A DNA stretch of 64,000 nucleotides from Jatrophihabitans cynanchi. Its GTDB lineage: Bacteria > Actinomycetota > Actinomycetes > Mycobacteriales > Jatrophihabitantaceae. Numbering within the stretch: position 1 is the first letter of the stretch; each line of letters opens with the position of its first letter. Below, piece after piece: positions 5,887 to 51,313 of this stretch. The notes beneath the pieces were generated by a model. That model searched no databases, was not told where the DNA came from, and saw nothing but the letters and a program-made list of their open reading frames with translations. The DNA is taken from contig NZ_CP097463.1 of assembly GCF_027247405.1 (NCBI RefSeq), forward strand, positions 4,402,001 through 4,466,000. Direction: 5' to 3'. The position numbers and the translations under genes were made by a program.

Positions 5887-7287
5887 TCAGGGGACGATCG
5901 TGCGAAGGCATGCGCGGAAGGCCGGTCGCCACACGCTCCAGGTGTGCTTGCCGGGGTAGGTCCGCAGCACCACGTGCTTGCCCGCCGATCGGAGCGCGTC
6001 CGCGAACCGGGCCGTCTGCGCTTTGGTGCGGCGGTCGTCATTGCCGTAGGCCAGGAAGACGAGCGCGGGTTCGCGTTTGGCGTGCAGGAGGGCGCTCGCC
6101 GCGCGTTGCGCGCCGAGATCATGCCCCAGCGGCGGCGCGGCGCCGGTGTAGTAGCCGGACAGCCCGCACACCGCGTGTACCGGCTGGTGGTCGAGCAGCG
6201 GCAGGTAGGCCGCACCGAAGCCTCCGGACGAGAGCCCGGCATAGCTGTAGCTGCTGTTGGTGCGGAAGGTGCCGGCGACCCACCTGCGCAGGTCGACCGC
6301 GACCGAGGTGCCGATCTGCTGCTCGGCGGTGTTGACGTACCAACTGCGCTGGACGGCCGGACCGTTTCCGTCGGGGAGCACACCGATGAACGGTCCGACC
6401 CCGGACGCGGACTGTGCGGCCTGCAGGTCGCCGAGCTTCAACAGACCTTGTGGACTGCCGGGGTCGCCGTGCAGCAGGACCACGACGGGGTACCGCTGAG
6501 TGCTGTGCGCGTAGCCGGCCGGCAACATCACGATCACCTTGCGGCTCTCGTGCAGCGCGGGCGAGGGATAGGTGGTCTCGAGCAGTTGCGGCGCACTGAC
6601 GACCGCGCCGCCGGCACTGTGGTAGACCCGATCGGGCGGGAGCACGCCGCGTGAGGCGGCGACACCGATCCCGCCGAGGAGTGCCGCGGCGATTGCGTAG
6701 GCGAGGAGCCGGCGCCGGGACTGCCGCCGCGGCGCCGGGCCACGTCCGAAGACGCGGCCGGCGAGCAGTCCCCACGGGAAGACCGAGACGTGCTCCCAGT
6801 CGGCCAGCTGGTGATGGACCAGCAGGCCGCCGAACAGGAACAGCACGAGGCCGACGGTCAGCCGCCGGTCCCGGACGATCCCGGCGAGCGCGCCCGAACT
6901 GGCCGCCACGATCGCGGACGCGCCGATGTCCAGGGTGTCCATGCGGGTCAGCGCCCACTGGCTCCCCCCGGCCGCGAGCAGCCCCAGTTCGGCGGCCACG
7001 CTCAGCGGCCCGGCAACGGCGGCGAAGACGGCCAGCACCGCGGCCCGCGTGTGTCCGGCCGCGACCTCATAGCTGCCCATCGTCACGAGCAGGCTCACGC
7101 AGATGCTGACCACCATGAACAGGTCGCGCGTGAGCAGGGTGGAGCTCACCAGTACCCCGTAATGGCCCCCGGTAACCGCGTGCACCGAGAACGCGCCGTC
7201 CACGAACCGGGCCGTCGGCAGTTCGAGCCCGCGCTGCAGCCGCACGAACGTGGCGATTACCGCGGCGACCAGCGCCAGCGTGACCAC
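5887..7287 (-). CDS. Membrane-anchored alpha/beta-hydrolase (esterase family)
   Basis: A protein with several N-terminal hydrophobic segments (VVTLALVAAVIATFV, GVLVSSTLL, VAAGHTRAAVLAVFAAVAG, LTVGLVLFLFGGLLV, LLAYAIAAALLGGIGV) followed by an esterase/antigen-85-like hydrolase domain. The domain carries VVLLHGDPGSP, the nucleophile motif GLSSGGFG, an acidic residue in YGNDDRR and the histidine in PGKHTWSVW, so the triad looks complete and the domain would face outside. The start is uncertain: GTG 7287 is the first plausible codon after the upstream gene's stop at 7413; an earlier start overlapping that gene is possible. It follows the DUF2156 gene on the same strand, suggesting a joint role in envelope lipid or cell-wall modification. 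Confidence 0.75.
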   Translation of the reverse strand: MVTLALVAAVIATFVRLQRGLELPTARFVDGAFSVHAVTGGHYGVLVSSTLLTRDLFMVVSICVSLLVTMGSYEVAAGHTRAAVLAVFAAVAGPLSVAAELGLLAAGGSQWALTRMDTLDIGASAIVAASSGALAGIVRDRRLTVGLVLFLFGGLLVHHQLADWEHVSVFPWGLLAGRVFGRGPAPRRQSRRRLLAYAIAAALLGGIGVAASRGVLPPDRVYHSAGGAVVSAPQLLETTYPSPALHESRKVIVMLPAGYAHSTQRYPVVVLLHGDPGSPQGLLKLGDLQAAQSASGVGPFIGVLPDGNGPAVQRSWYVNTAEQQIGTSVAVDLRRWVAGTFRTNSSYSYAGLSSGGFGAAYLPLLDHQPVHAVCGLSGYYTGAAPPLGHDLGAQRAASALLHAKREPALVFLAYGNDDRRTKAQTARFADALRSAGKHVVLRTYPGKHTWSVWRPAFRACLRTIVP

Positions 7288-19526: not shown

Positions 19527-22204
<2,678 letters not shown>

Positions 22205-22205
22205 C

Positions 22206-22219
22206 TAGAACCAGTTCTT
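22206..22219. promoter_or_regulatory. KstR box upstream of hsaA
   Basis: TAGAACCAGTTCTT fits the KstR consensus TnnAACnnGTTnnA except for the last base; the core AGAAC-CA-GTTCT is a perfect inverted repeat. It is 44 bases before the hsaA start codon, in the divergent hsaA-kshA promoter. Confidence 0.8.
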
Positions 22220-22303: not shown

Positions 22304-22317
22304 TGTAACGTGTTCTT
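22304..22317. promoter_or_regulatory. KstR box upstream of kshA
   Basis: TGTAACGTGTTCTT has the AAC-NN-GTT core and the first T of the KstR consensus; flanks are less symmetric than at the other sites. It lies just before a GTG at 22321 and 55 bases before the preferred kshA ATG. A second box for the other side of the same divergent promoter. Confidence 0.65.
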
Positions 22318-26118: not shown

Positions 26119-26132
26119 TATAACCTGTTCTA
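26119..26132. promoter_or_regulatory. KstR box on the kstD promoter
   Basis: TATAACCTGTTCTA matches TnnAACnnGTTnnA exactly. It contains TAACCT (26121-26126), a -10-like hexamer seven bases before the ATG at 26134, so a bound repressor would cover the promoter of an apparently leaderless gene. Confidence 0.85.
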
Positions 26133-27831: not shown

Positions 27832-29276
27832 GCCGCCCCTTCGCGCCGGTGGATGCCTCGACGGTCGGGAGCTGGGCCGACGACGCGGATGTCGTCGTGG
27901 TCGGCTTCGGCGCGGCCGGTTCGTCGGCGGCGTTCGAGGCTGCCACCGTCGGCGCCCGCACGCTGGTGCTCGAGCGGGCCGGCGCGGCCGGCGGCGCGGC
28001 CGCCCTGTCGGACGGCTTCATCTACCTGGGTGCCGGTACGCCTGAGCAGGTGGCGGCGGGCTACCCGGACACCGTCGAGAACATGCAGGCGTTCCTGCTG
28101 GCCGCGTGTGGTCCGGCTCCGGACCGGGCGAAGATCGAACGGTACTGCGCGGCCATCGCCGAGCATCGCGAGTGGCTGCTGGCACGGGGCGTCGAGTTCC
28201 TGGGAACCGTTCTGCCGCACGCGAACGGCACCTCACCCGTCGACGGTGAGGGCCTGATGTTCACCGGCGGCGAGAATGCCCATCCCTACCGTGACGTCGC
28301 GACCCCCGCGCCGCGCGGTCACGTCGTGCAGGGCGGGCGTCCGGGCGGGAAGGTGTTGATGGCGCGACTGAGCGGAGCAGCGGTGGAGGCGGGCGCGCGC
28401 ACGTCGTTCGACACCCGGGCCGAACGTCTCGTGGTCGACGGCACCGGGCGGGTGTGCGGGGTGATCGCCCAGCGGTACGGCGAGCAGGTGGCGATCCGCG
28501 CGCGGGCCGGCGTGGTGCTGGCGGCCGGTGGCTTCATCCAGAACCCGGCGATGGTGGAGCAGTACGCACCCGTCGTGCAGGTCACGCCGTTGCGGCTCGG
28601 TACCGACGGTGACGACGGAAGCGGGATCCGGATGGCGCAGGCGGTCGGCGCGCAGGTGAAGCGGATGGACGCGATCGAGTGCGCGTTGCCGTTCAACGCG
28701 CCGCGCTCGCTCGTGCACGGCATCATCGTCAACCGCGCCGGGCAACGGTTCGTGAACGAGGACACCTACATGGGGCGGGTGGGACAGGCCGCGCTCGTGC
28801 ACCAGGGCGCGGTGGCGTACCTGATCGTCGACGAGGAGCACTACGCGCCGAACTGGCTGAACATCCCGGCGACCTGGGTGTGCGCCACGGCGTCCGAACT
28901 CGAGGGCGAGATCGGGCTTCCGCAGGGTGCGCTGGTCGCGACGCTGGACTATTACAACGAGCACGCGCGCTCCGGGCGCGATCCGCTGTTCGGAAAGGAC
29001 GCCACAGTGCTCACCCCGCTGCGCGGTCCGCTCGCGGCGTTCGACCTGCGGGCCGGGTCCTTCGTCTACGCGCCGTTCACACTCGGCGGCCTGCACACCT
29101 TGCCGGACGGCGAGGTGTTGGATCTGGCCGCAGCGCCGATCCCCGGGCTGTTCGCGGCGGGCCGCACCACCTCGGGCGTTGCCGCTCAGGGCTACTGCAG
29201 CGGGCTGTCACTGGGTGATTCGACGTTGTTCGGCAGATGGGCCGGGCGCCGCGCCGCGAGTGCGGCGCGGCGCTGA
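27828..29276 (+). CDS. Second KstD-like FAD-binding oxidoreductase
   Basis: A 482-residue flavoprotein of the fumarate reductase/KstD superfamily: DADVVVVGFGAAGSSAAFEAATVGARTLVLERAGAAGGAAALSDGFIYLG at the start, ARAGVVLAAGGFIQNPAMVEQY, GIIVNRAGQRFVNEDTYMGR, and GLFAAGRTTSGVAAQGYCSGLSLGDSTLFGRWAGR at the end. It is shorter and distinct from KstD; related actinobacterial proteins include 3-ketosteroid delta-4 dehydrogenases and other steroid or fatty-acid oxidoreductases. The GTG start overlaps the kstD TGA, so it shares the KstR-controlled transcript. Exact reaction unknown. Confidence 0.85.
   Translation: MSRPFAPVDASTVGSWADDADVVVVGFGAAGSSAAFEAATVGARTLVLERAGAAGGAAALSDGFIYLGAGTPEQVAAGYPDTVENMQAFLLAACGPAPDRAKIERYCAAIAEHREWLLARGVEFLGTVLPHANGTSPVDGEGLMFTGGENAHPYRDVATPAPRGHVVQGGRPGGKVLMARLSGAAVEAGARTSFDTRAERLVVDGTGRVCGVIAQRYGEQVAIRARAGVVLAAGGFIQNPAMVEQYAPVVQVTPLRLGTDGDDGSGIRMAQAVGAQVKRMDAIECALPFNAPRSLVHGIIVNRAGQRFVNEDTYMGRVGQAALVHQGAVAYLIVDEEHYAPNWLNIPATWVCATASELEGEIGLPQGALVATLDYYNEHARSGRDPLFGKDATVLTPLRGPLAAFDLRAGSFVYAPFTLGGLHTLPDGEVLDLAAAPIPGLFAAGRTTSGVAAQGYCSGLSLGDSTLFGRWAGRRAASAARR
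29246..29273. terminator. Perfect 12-pair GC hairpin at a gene end
   Basis: GCGCCGCGCCGC-GAGT-GCGGCGCGGCGC: a perfect 12-base stem with a four-base loop, ending directly at the TGA (29274-29276) of the flavoprotein and nine bases from the stop of the convergent HesB-like gene. It doubles as coding sequence for an Arg-Ala tail. A T-less actinobacterial terminator acting both ways is likely. Confidence 0.6.
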
Positions 29277-30829: not shown

Positions 30830-31291
30830 TCAGCTTCCCGCGAAGCGGAGCTGGCGCCAGGCCTCGTAGGCGGCGACGGCGGCCGCGTTGGACAGGTTCA
30901 ACGAGCGGCGCCCCGCCAGCATCGGGATACGCAACCGGTCGGTGACGTTCGGATCGGACAGCACGTCGGCGGCGAGGCCGGTCGGTTCAGGACCGAACAT
31001 CAGCACATCGCCCTGCCGATAGGAGATGTCCGCGTACGAGGTCTCGGCCGCGGCGGTGAACGCGAACACCCTGGCCGGCAGCACGTCAGCCCAGAGCGCC
31101 TCGCGTGTCGGATGGACGGTGACGGTAGCCAGGTCGTGATAGTCCAGCCCCGCACGCCGCAGCTTCGCATCGGTCATAGTGAAGCCGAGCGGCTCGACCA
31201 GGTGCAGGTGCGCGCCGGTCACCGCGGCGAGCCGAATGGCGTTACCGGTGTTGGGCGGGATGCGCGGCTCGACGAAGACTAGGTGGAACAC
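30830..31291 (-). CDS. trmL: tRNA (cytidine/uridine-34 2'-O)-methyltransferase
   Basis: A 153-residue SPOUT methyltransferase of the TrmL/YibK type: FHLVFVEPRIPPNTGNAIRLAAVTGAHLHLVEPLGF, LRRAGLDYHDLATVTVH, VLMFGPEPTGL and RIPMLAGRRSLNLSNAAAVAAYEAWRQ, with the deep trefoil knot motifs in order. It methylates the wobble nucleotide of certain tRNA-Leu. Start GTG 31291 lies six bases after TAAGCT with no ribosome site, so it is probably leaderless. It is divergent from kstR. Confidence 0.92.
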   Translation of the reverse strand: MFHLVFVEPRIPPNTGNAIRLAAVTGAHLHLVEPLGFTMTDAKLRRAGLDYHDLATVTVHPTREALWADVLPARVFAFTAAAETSYADISYRQGDVLMFGPEPTGLAADVLSDPNVTDRLRIPMLAGRRSLNLSNAAAVAAYEAWRQLRFAGS

Positions 31292-31312
31292 GCGTCGAGC
31301 TTAAGGGGTATG

Positions 31313-31340
31313 CATCGACTAGAACGAGTTCTAGTCGATG
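31313..31340. promoter_or_regulatory. KstR box 1 upstream of kstR
   Basis: The core TAGAACGAGTTCTA (31320-31333) matches the KstR consensus exactly and sits inside a longer perfect inverted repeat with 13-base arms around a two-base centre. It lies between kstR and the tRNA methyltransferase, 22 bases from the latter's start. Confidence 0.85.
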
Positions 31341-31397
31341 ACTGTTCGGCGAACGGCAATCGCCCAGCGGATATTCTGCCGCCTGCGCCGTATCAAA

Positions 31398-31411
31398 TGG
31401 AACACGTTCCG
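31398..31411. promoter_or_regulatory. KstR box 2 upstream of kstR
   Basis: TGGAACACGTTCCG has the AAC-NN-GTT core and GGAAC/GTTCC symmetry. It is 57 bases before the kstR start, consistent with autoregulation. Confidence 0.7.
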
Positions 31412-31467
31412 CGTGTTCACGGTGCTAGGCTGACCTGGTCTTCACACTCGACGACGAGGGGCTTTCG

Positions 31468-32121
31468 ATGACATCCGCTCCACGCACGCGCGACGATCAC
31501 GGTGCGGTGAGCGCGCTCACTCCCGAGGATCTCGGCTCGTCGGCGCAGCGTGAGCGGCGCAAGCGCATCCTCGATGCCACCTTGGCACTCGCGTCCAAGG
31601 GCGGTTACGAGGCCGTGCAGATGCGCTCGGTGGCCGAGCGGGCCGACGTGGCGCTCGGCACGCTGTACCGCTACTTCCCGTCCAAGATTCACCTGCTGGT
31701 CTCGGCGTTGGCGCGTGAGCTCGCGCGGACCCAGGACCGCACGGAGCGTTTGGCCCTGCCCGGAGACACGCCTTACGAGCGGTTGATGTTCATCCTGTCG
31801 CGGATCACGAAGGCGCTGCAGCGCGATCCGCAGCTCACCGAGGCGATGACCCGTGCCTTCATGTTCGCCGATGCTTCCGCGGCCGCCGAGGTCGATCAGG
31901 TCGGCAGGCTCATGGATCAGATGTTCGCGCGTGCGTTGCTCACCGGCGACGGACCGGCCACCGAGGAGCAGCTGGCGATCGCCCGAGTGATCAGCGACGT
32001 GTGGCTGTCGAACCTGGTCGCCTGGGTCACCCGCCGCGCCTCGGCGACCGACGTCGCCAACCGGTTGGAACTCACGATCGGCCTGCTTCTGGGCGTGCGG
32101 CAGGCTTCCGACTCGCTCTGA
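31468..32121 (+). CDS. kstR: KstR, TetR-family repressor of steroid catabolism
   Basis: A 217-residue TetR regulator closely similar to mycobacterial KstR. The DNA-binding part LGSSAQRERRKRILDATLALASKGGYEAVQMRSVAERADVALGTLYRYFPSKIHLLVSALARE and the ligand part TEAMTRAFMFADASAAAEVDQV and ARVISDVWLSNLVAWVTRRASATDV are near-identical to what I recall of that protein. KstR is released from DNA by a steroid CoA thioester. ATG 31468 has GAGGGG six bases upstream. The boxes listed here at hsaA, kshA, kstD and kstR define its local regulon. Confidence 0.93.
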   Translation: MTSAPRTRDDHGAVSALTPEDLGSSAQRERRKRILDATLALASKGGYEAVQMRSVAERADVALGTLYRYFPSKIHLLVSALARELARTQDRTERLALPGDTPYERLMFILSRITKALQRDPQLTEAMTRAFMFADASAAAEVDQVGRLMDQMFARALLTGDGPATEEQLAIARVISDVWLSNLVAWVTRRASATDVANRLELTIGLLLGVRQASDSL

Positions 32122-32157: not shown

Positions 32158-33606
32158 CTAGAACGGCGGTGGTTCGTCGTTGGGGTCGGGTCCGGTTCTC
32201 GCCGCCGGTGGTGGTTGCGGTACTGGTAGTTCGGGTGGCCGGTAGCGGTAGCGGTGCCGGGTTGCGCTGGTCCAGTGGTAGGTGCCGTCGGGGGTGCGGG
32301 TGAGGGTCCAGCCGGCGTGGTGTTTCAGGTCGTGATGCCGCTTGCAGAGCGGTTCGAGGTTCTCGGCGCTGGTCGCACCGGCCGGCCAGGGCAGGCGGTG
32401 ATCCAGCTGGCAGCGGTGCGCTTTGCGCCTGCAGCCGGGCATCACACACCGCTGGTCGCGGGTGATCACATGCCGGGCGATCGCGGTGGTGGGGTGGTAG
32501 CGGTGGGTGATCAGGCTGCTGTCGATCACCGGACCGGTCGGCTCCGTGGGTGTCTGGGATGCGTCGGGCGCCTGGGGGCAGGTCTGGTCGAGGAGCCGAC
32601 CGGCCTGATCGACAGGCCAGTAGTGGTAACGGGCGCCGGGCTGGTTCGCCATCCGGCGGGCGACATCTGCGGGGACGGGTTCCCCGTTCACATACCCGGG
32701 TTGGTCGTCCTGTCCGGCGAGGGTGGAGGCGGCGAGGGTGACGTTCACGCTCGGCCGCAGTCCGTGCTCGGCCGGCAGGCCGGGCATCGCCAGCGCGGCG
32801 GTGCAGATCTCCACCAGTGCGTCGGCACGGCGTTGGTCCGCGGTGCGGGTGTCGTCGCGGCTGGTTCGCTGTCCCCAGGCGTTGACGGCGGTCCAGATGG
32901 TTTCGATGCCGTCGGCCGGCGCGAACAGGTTCAACCAGCCCATCCCATCGTCCACATGTTCCTTGCGGACGTGCCGCTGCGCCGCAGCCTCGCGGTGCCT
33001 CTCGTTCTGGGACTTCGCATCTTGTTTCGCGATGGCTCGCCGGACGGCGGCGCGGAACTCACCGGGTGTCTGTCCCGGCGCCCGCTTGAGCACCTGGGCT
33101 TGTACCTTCGCGACGATCGGGTCGGGGAGCTCTGCGCATGCGGTCGCGAGGATGCGGGCGTGCACCGCGGACAGGTGCCCGTCCCGCAGCAGCTCGAAGG
33201 TGTCCCACAACCGGAAGGTCAGCTCAGCGGCAGTATCCAGCCGGTCCTGCGCGGTGCCCGGTGCCAGGTGCAACGCCAAGGCGACCTCGTCCTGCAGGAA
33301 CTGGGCACCGTCACTGTCCCGCTGCTGCAGTTCGGCCAGCAGTTCGACCTGCTTGGCATCGACCAGGGCCCGCAGCCGGTCGCACGCCTCCAGGGCGTCG
33401 ATCAAGCCGGTGCCCGACAGCCGCGTGGGTAACAGTGATTCCATCGCGGTCAGTACCGCTCCGGACGGGGTGAGCACGGTGGCGGCTTCGGCGACCTGAT
33501 CGGGCCGGTGCAGCACGTCCGACGCAGTGGGGAGCGGGGTGTACAGGGCGGGGTCGACCAGGTCGACGGTGATCCCGTCGACCACGATCCGATCTGAATC
33601 GCCCAT
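32158..33606 (-). CDS. DUF222/HNH endonuclease protein of REP13E12 type, copy 1
   Basis: A 482-residue protein with an N-terminal DUF222 region (MESLLPTRLSGTGLIDALEACDRLRALVDAKQVELLAEL ... AVHARILATA ... QTPGEFRAAVRRAIAKQDAKSQNERHREAAAQRHV) and a C-terminal HNH nuclease motif (RCVMPGCRRKAHRCQLDH, NLEPLCKRHHDLKHH). The tail is proline-rich. These proteins occur as multicopy families in mycobacteria and relatives; DNA cleavage is predicted, the biological role is unclear. ATG 33606 follows a strong promoter by seven bases, so translation is leaderless. A close paralog lies inverted at 47897-49381. Confidence 0.9.
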   Translation of the reverse strand: MGDSDRIVVDGITVDLVDPALYTPLPTASDVLHRPDQVAEAATVLTPSGAVLTAMESLLPTRLSGTGLIDALEACDRLRALVDAKQVELLAELQQRDSDGAQFLQDEVALALHLAPGTAQDRLDTAAELTFRLWDTFELLRDGHLSAVHARILATACAELPDPIVAKVQAQVLKRAPGQTPGEFRAAVRRAIAKQDAKSQNERHREAAAQRHVRKEHVDDGMGWLNLFAPADGIETIWTAVNAWGQRTSRDDTRTADQRRADALVEICTAALAMPGLPAEHGLRPSVNVTLAASTLAGQDDQPGYVNGEPVPADVARRMANQPGARYHYWPVDQAGRLLDQTCPQAPDASQTPTEPTGPVIDSSLITHRYHPTTAIARHVITRDQRCVMPGCRRKAHRCQLDHRLPWPAGATSAENLEPLCKRHHDLKHHAGWTLTRTPDGTYHWTSATRHRYRYRPPELPVPQPPPAARTGPDPNDEPPPF

Positions 33607-47896: not shown

Positions 47897-49381
47897 ATGG
47901 GCGAATCCGACCAGATCGTGGTCGACGGGATCACCGTCGACCTGGTCGACCCCGCCCAATGCACCCCACTACCCACCGCCTCGGACGTGCTGCACCGGCC
48001 CGACCAGGCCGCCGGCGCGGCGAGCGTGCTGCACCCGTCCGGTGCGGTCCTGACCGCGATGGAGTCGCTGCTGCCGGGCCGGCTCTCGGACACCGGCCTG
48101 ATCGACGCCCTCACCGCCTGTGACCGGCTGCGTGCGCTGGTGGATGCCAAACAGAGCGAACTGCTCGCCGAACTCGCCCACCGCGACCCCGGCGGTGAGC
48201 AGTTCCTGTGTGAGGAGGCGGCGCTCGCGCTGCACCTGGCACCGGCCACCACCCAGGAGCGCCTCCAGTGCGCCAGCGAACTGAGCTCGCGGTTGTGGGA
48301 CACGTTCGAACTGCTGCGCTCGGGGTACCTGTCCGCGGTGCACGCCCGCATCCTGGCCACCGCCACCGTCGACCTACCCGATCCGGTGGCCGCGAAAGTC
48401 CAGGCCCAGGTCCTGAAGCGGGCACCCGGACAGACACCCGGTGAGTTCCGCGCCGCCGTCCGCCGCGCGATCGCCAAACACCACGCCAAGAGCCAGAACG
48501 AGAAACACCGCGCTGCGGCCGCGCAACGGCACGTGCGGCGCGAGCAGGTCGAGGACGGCATGGGCTGGCTCACCCTGTTCGCCCCGGCCGACGGCATCGA
48601 AACCGTATGGACCGCCGTCAACGCCTGGGGCACGAAGACCAGCCGCGAGGACCAGCGCACCGCCGACCAACGCCGCGCCGACGCCCTCGTCGAGATCTGC
48701 ACCGCCGCCCTGGCCCTGCCCGGACTACCCACCGAACACGGACTCAAGCCCACCGTGAACGTCACCCTCGCCGCCAGCACCCTGGCCGGGACCGACAACC
48801 AACCCGGCTACCTCAACGGCGAACCCGTCCCCGCCGACATCGCCCGGCGCCTCGCCACCCAACCCGGCGCCCAGCGCCACTACTGGCCCGTCGACCAGAC
48901 CGGACACCTCCTCGACACCGCCTGCCCACACGCACCCACAGCACCCACAGCACCCACAGCACCCACAGCACCCACAGCATCCACAGCATCCACGGTGCGG
49001 ACCGGGCCGGTGCTCGACAGCAGCCTGATCACCCACCGCTACCACCCCACCACCACGATCACCCGGCACGTCATCACCCGCGACCAACGCTGCATCATGC
49101 CCGGCTGCCGGCGGCGCGCCCACACCTGCCAGTTGGATCACCGCACACCCTGGCCCGACGGCCCCACCAGCGTGACCAACCTCGAACCCCTCTGCAAAAG
49201 GCACCACGACCTCAAACACCACGCCCGCTGGACCCTCACCCGCACCCCCGACGGCACCTACCACTGGACCTCGGCAACCCGACACCACTACCACTACCGA
49301 CCACCCGAACTACCCGTCCCCGAACCCGAACCACCGAAGCAGACCGGACCCGACCCCAACGACCAACCACCACCGTATTGA
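47897..49381 (+). CDS. DUF222/HNH endonuclease protein of REP13E12 type, copy 2
   Basis: A 494-residue paralog of the protein at 32158-33606, similar over its full length, with the DUF222 part (MESLLPGRLSDTGLIDALTACDRLRALVDAKQSELLAEL) and HNH motif (RCIMPGCRRRAHTCQLDH, NLEPLCKRHHDLKHH) intact. The region before the HNH domain contains a stretch of Ala-Pro-Thr repeats from seven 9-base units (48932-48994), missing in copy 1. Both copies are open and share promoter and start context, so both seem maintained. Confidence 0.9.
   Translation: MGESDQIVVDGITVDLVDPAQCTPLPTASDVLHRPDQAAGAASVLHPSGAVLTAMESLLPGRLSDTGLIDALTACDRLRALVDAKQSELLAELAHRDPGGEQFLCEEAALALHLAPATTQERLQCASELSSRLWDTFELLRSGYLSAVHARILATATVDLPDPVAAKVQAQVLKRAPGQTPGEFRAAVRRAIAKHHAKSQNEKHRAAAAQRHVRREQVEDGMGWLTLFAPADGIETVWTAVNAWGTKTSREDQRTADQRRADALVEICTAALALPGLPTEHGLKPTVNVTLAASTLAGTDNQPGYLNGEPVPADIARRLATQPGAQRHYWPVDQTGHLLDTACPHAPTAPTAPTAPTAPTASTASTVRTGPVLDSSLITHRYHPTTTITRHVITRDQRCIMPGCRRRAHTCQLDHRTPWPDGPTSVTNLEPLCKRHHDLKHHARWTLTRTPDGTYHWTSATRHHYHYRPPELPVPEPEPPKQTGPDPNDQPPPY
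48932..48994 (+). repeat. Seven 9-base in-frame repeats
   Basis: Five copies of GCACCCACA followed by two GCATCCAC(A/G) units, encoding alternating Ala, Pro/Ser and Thr in the linker before the HNH domain. Length difference from copy 1 is largely explained here. Confidence 0.9.
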
Positions 49382-51236: not shown

Positions 51237-51313
51237 CCCGCTCCGCCGGGGAGGGCCGTCTTGGCCCTCCCCGGCATCACCACCAACGCATGCCAGGTCT
51301 TTCAGGGGGAGCC

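Follow-up and report, generated by a model that had tools for sequence, protein, structure and literature searches.

A perfect KstR operator between kstR and a trmL-like gene in an actinobacterium, probably retained from a lost fadE34 neighbour

Why does a perfect operator for KstR, the repressor of cholesterol catabolism, lie between kstR and a gene for tRNA modification, and does KstR control that gene? We addressed this question in a window of 64,000 nucleotides (the whole stretch of DNA that was analysed), covering bases 4402001-4466000 of a 4.5-Mb genome assembled as a single contig. The two genes are divergent, and their intergenic region of 176 bp and its surroundings contain the following features.

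30830..31291, minus strand: trmL-like gene for a SPOUT tRNA (cytidine(34)-2'-O)-methyltransferase, GTG start
31298..31303, minus strand: TAAGCT, putative trmL -10, 6 nt before the GTG; predicted leaderless promoter
31313..31340, no strand: 28-bp perfect palindrome containing box 1, with 13-base arms and a 2-nt spacer
31320..31333, no strand: box 1, perfect KstR operator core TAGAACGAGTTCTA; probable former fadE34-side operator
31398..31411, no strand: box 2 (TGGAACACGTTCCG), KstR-type operator proximal to kstR, at its promoter; relatives have a proximal box in the same place
31426..31431, plus strand: TAGGCT, predicted kstR -10, 14 bp after box 2
31468..32121, plus strand: kstR, TetR-family cholesterol catabolism repressor (NF033703, 334 bits; aligned to a KstR of known structure)

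The score of the kstR product exceeds the NCBIfam KstR equivalog threshold (cut-off 280), and the genome thus encodes a cognate KstR. The solved KstR of Mycobacterium tuberculosis aligns to it over nearly its full length, with an almost identical helix-turn-helix. M. tuberculosis KstR binds its own promoter at the motif TAGAAC(N2)GTTCTA, and in M. smegmatis the regulon is derepressed when kstR is deleted (PMC1995591). The identity of the regulator and the sequences of both boxes support the original prediction that kstR carries two KstR boxes. The locus can be described as a kstR control region from an actinobacterium of the Jatrophihabitantaceae type; KstR control is ordinary, and the neighbour is unusual.

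Box 1 is a strong site. Its core has 0 mismatches against the published TAGAAC(N2)GTTCTA (PMC1995591). We built a position weight matrix (PWM) from the 43 distinct 20-mer sites in Table 3 of that paper, for which the training median was 26.2 bits. With 27.2 bits, above this median, box 1 ranked first in the window, while the maximum score across 60 random 64-kb sequences of simulated background was 18.7. Direct reading of the sequence gave CATCGACTAGAAC-GA-GTTCTAGTCGATG at 31313-31340, with arms that are 100% complementary. Hence, the predicted 28-base palindrome and its perfect fit to the consensus were both confirmed; the observation is real, correctly located and statistically strong. Some of the predicted distances need adjustment. 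The 22 bases to the trmL GTG hold for the end of the palindrome, but the box core is 29 bases away. The statement that the box nearly abuts TAAGCT is too strong, as the gap is 9 bases to the palindrome and 16 to the core.

The length of the arms is by itself unremarkable, because the window contains a second perfect palindrome with 13-base arms at 51245-51275. The arms of box 1 are the longest among the four exact sites of the genome, and the extra arm length is not conserved at the distal boxes of relatives. Both the equal palindrome and the relatives that lack the extension weaken the idea that arms of 13 bases are a special feature. The palindrome at 51245-51275 and another at 29246-29273 (12-base arms) are both perfect, lie in gaps after genes and are probably transcription terminators.

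Box 2 scored 12.6 bits (rank 5 in the window). Compared with TnnAACnnGTTnnA, it keeps AACnnGTT, its last A is replaced by G, and its position is conserved in relatives. Scores of this level are expected by chance about 0.2 times per 64 kb and about 0.0005 times within the 176-bp intergenic region; box 2 is therefore weak on its own, yet unlikely to occur by chance where it stands. From these sequences, binding of KstR at the boxes is very likely.

Exact TAGAACNNGTTCTA / TAGAACnnGTTCTA sites occur four times in the genome, box 1 included. One of the other three is located between genes for an acyl-CoA dehydrogenase and a ferredoxin, one where the unassigned ORF L173:7585-8811 starts, and one directly ahead of a SnoaL-like gene that is followed by an F420-dependent reductase gene. 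The pattern TRNAACNNGTTNYA was found 11 times genome-wide, versus 2 for the reversed control pattern. Three further boxes in the window adjoin steroid genes.

22206..22219, no strand: KstR box of hsaA, TAGAACCAGTTCTT (motif and PWM)
22304..22317, no strand: KstR box of kshA, TGTAACGTGTTCTT, 98 bp from the hsaA box
26119..26132, no strand: KstR box of kstD, TATAACCTGTTCTA (motif and PWM)

Because boxes adjoin steroid genes and TRNAACNNGTTNYA exceeds its control, KstR control of steroid genes looks ordinary here, adding one more lineage with such control of steroid catabolism. Paired boxes 98-102 bp apart occur at three further places in the genome, among them hsaA/kshA and further divergent promoters of steroid genes. 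The two-box layout is likewise ordinary, since the genome has these other pairs and relatives have the layout between kstR and a divergent fadE34.

Several side observations concern these genes. At L173:7620, L172:10946 and window position 22206, the KstR-box promoters appear to be leaderless: the end of the box contains the -10, and an ATG follows after about 10 nt. The hsaA gene (window 20072-22195, minus strand) appears frameshifted: the match to HsaA breaks off at ORF residue 282, having covered positions 1-260 of the 383 in the profile; the remainder of HsaA continues in another frame, and HsaC then follows in the first frame. This appears to be either a real lesion or an assembly error. 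At L171:5871-5884 and approximately 5985-5998, two KstR-like palindromes with altered cores (TAGTACGTATTCTA and TGAAATACATTTCA) lie 114 bp apart, between an SDR gene and thiolase-fadE34 genes. A KstR paralogue is encoded about 27 kb away at L178:3415-4047 (118.9 bits, below the KstR cut-off), and the L171 palindromes may be its diverged operators.

The origin of box 1 was approached by comparison of 87 kstR loci, the window included. A few genomes are represented twice and two loci end at a contig edge, which leaves 85 assessable loci. A divergent fadE34 homologue was present in 76 of these, while trmL was the divergent neighbour of kstR in the window only. Five loci combine a distal TAGAACnnGTTCTA-type box beside fadE34 with a proximal box beside kstR; three belong to family members (L011, L014, L015) and two to more distant genomes (L044, L046). 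The kstR promoters of Mycobacterium and Rhodococcus have a single box. Downstream of kstR, the gene dop is found in the window and in all family loci that reach that far. As this kstR-dop linkage is kept in relatives, the change occurred on the upstream side. Elsewhere in the genome (3643149-3645305) lies the gene for its best FadE34 homologue, which has 53% identity to the L042 protein; this gene adjoins a steroid 3-ketoacyl-CoA thiolase gene. The intergenic DNA of the window was found in no second genome among 397 genomes of the order.

These comparisons make it likely that box 1 is the inherited fadE34-side operator and that the locus has lost fadE34. The original prediction had overlooked this probable origin, even though fadE34 stands at nearly all other kstR loci. 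As an agent of the rearrangement we considered the HNH/DUF222-type gene after kstR; it is a multi-copy gene, but it lies on the side of kstR opposite the trmL junction, and it was set aside. This gene (32158-33606, minus strand) and another in the window (47897-49381, plus strand) have approximately 78% identical DNA. Both belong to a genomic set with four or more full-length copies and numerous fragments, at about 80% protein identity, and no copy was seen between kstR and dop in relatives.

The trmL product is itself best called TrmL-like, because it shows full-length SpoU homology yet falls below both NCBIfam TrmL cut-offs (174.6 versus 282 bits for NF007683 and 154.5 versus 190.6 for TIGR00185). 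It matches PF00588 with 97 bits, and solved TrmL proteins over its full length with E-values down to 5e-47. Close homologues occur in 19 other genomes of the family. In none of these 19 was trmL found beside kstR within the flanks examined, and none has a KstR box upstream of trmL. Of the six closest homologues, five carry a TANNNT motif exactly 5 nt upstream of a GTG start, and in L141 it is the identical TAAGCT; a chance match is expected in about 0.01 of promoters. Thus, trmL appears to bring its own leaderless -10. The junction between the trmL and kstR sides would then lie within the few bases that separate TAAGCT from the palindrome.

Taken together, our main reading is that the ancestral two-operator layout of fadE34-kstR was kept, fadE34 disappeared, and trmL joined beside the old operator. 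We assign this model a probability of roughly 0.65.

Whether box 1 now acts on trmL depends on the promoter geometry. The gap between box 1 and the trmL -10 is 16 bp and that between box 2 and the predicted kstR -10 is 14 bp, while the corresponding gap in relatives' kstR promoters with a recognisable -10 is 13-17 bp. Relative to the predicted leaderless start of trmL, box 1 spans about -29 to -42 and overlaps the -35 region. From this spacing, which resembles that of box 2 at kstR, a KstR dimer on box 1 should occlude the trmL -35. Six other KstR boxes of the genome have an embedded -10 in the box end (TTC-TANNNT), as do the fadE34-facing distal boxes of L011, L015, L044 and L046, plus one distal box at a contig edge (L010). 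Box 1 has no embedded -10, as TAGTCG stands at that position. It is likewise missing in L014, where fadE34 is still present.

KstR in other organisms is bound without inducer and released by steroid-derived ligands. Under the model proposed here, KstR dimers would occupy both boxes without inducer and would leave both when a steroid-derived ligand appears. Occupation of box 2 would cover the -35 region of kstR and cause autorepression. On box 1, KstR would hinder RNA polymerase at trmL, or provide a second operator for kstR autoregulation, or both. The predicted sharing of box 1 with a tRNA methyltransferase promoter thus stands as a matter of position, not as evidence of regulation. Judged from this arrangement, measurable steroid control of trmL is plausible, though we put it somewhat below an even chance. 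Slightly more tentative is the wider proposal of operator capture, in which loss of fadE34 and arrival of trmL put a housekeeping tRNA-modifying gene under KstR in one lineage.

The strongest alternative, to which we give even odds, is that both boxes serve the autoregulation of kstR only, as two operators that perhaps cooperate over 78 bp, with trmL as a constitutive bystander. One relative (L012/L041) is informative here: it has no fadE34 at the locus, and its upstream gene is co-directional with kstR and ends just before a perfect distal box. Since this box persists without a divergent gene, it may be kept for kstR itself, and the retention of box 1 can be explained without any control of trmL. 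The lack of an embedded -10 facing trmL points the same way. In Nocardioides simplex, induction was seen for only about one third of the operons in which KstR/KstR2 motifs were predicted; as the authors caution, a site that lies between divergent operons may serve just one of them (PMC7807495). Against a bystander role, box 1 lies on the trmL -35 with the spacing that box 2 has to kstR, so that a bound dimer would be expected to interfere; moreover, one box suffices at the kstR promoters of Mycobacterium and Rhodococcus.

It is unlikely that trmL is a selected new member of the KstR regulon, through which methylation of the tRNA wobble base is adjusted to growth on steroids. The perfect, extended palindrome and the placement of box 1 ahead of the trmL -10 would suit such a role, but the arrangement occurs in one genome only, the trmL genes of relatives have no box, and descent from the fadE34 operator already accounts for the box. 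Still less probable is that box 1 no longer has a function and is decaying as a remnant of the fadE34 promoter. The absence of fadE34 from the locus, its best homologue lying elsewhere, and the missing embedded -10 toward the divergent gene would agree with decay, whereas a perfect operator with the longest arms of the four exact genome sites does not look like it. Finally, although 13-base arms would fold in RNA and similar palindromes occur elsewhere in the window, we reject an RNA hairpin (terminator or attenuator) in place of an operator, because the palindrome lies between divergent genes and upstream of both predicted transcript starts, has no T-run after it, and is centred exactly on the KstR motif.

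The retained-operator reading gives the locus a wider interest. It looks like a natural case in which a regulatory site outlives the gene it served and ends up before an unrelated gene, and it allows the birth of a new regulon member to be tested. Operator capture, if true, means that in one lineage the methylation of the wobble base is coupled to the breakdown of steroids. The locus also warns that proximity to a box alone is insufficient to assign a gene to a regulon. Our literature search found no paper naming both KstR and a tRNA methyltransferase.

Among known systems, the KstR-autorepressed kstR/fadE34 pair of Mycobacterium (Rv3574/Rv3573c; PMC1995591) resembles the window in its TetR-type gene and in a TAGAAC(N2)GTTCTA motif that lies in a divergent intergenic region and overlaps the promoter. 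The window differs in having two boxes instead of one and a divergent trmL instead of fadE34. The Rv3570c/Rv3571 intergenic region (PMC1995591) also has two KstR motifs between two genes, but there the two flanking genes are both members of the steroid/lipid regulon. The fadE34-kstR loci L011, L014, L015, L044 and L046 share with the window a perfect or near-perfect distal box together with a proximal box and, within the family, dop downstream; in contrast to the window, they have fadE34 and a distal palindrome without extended arms.
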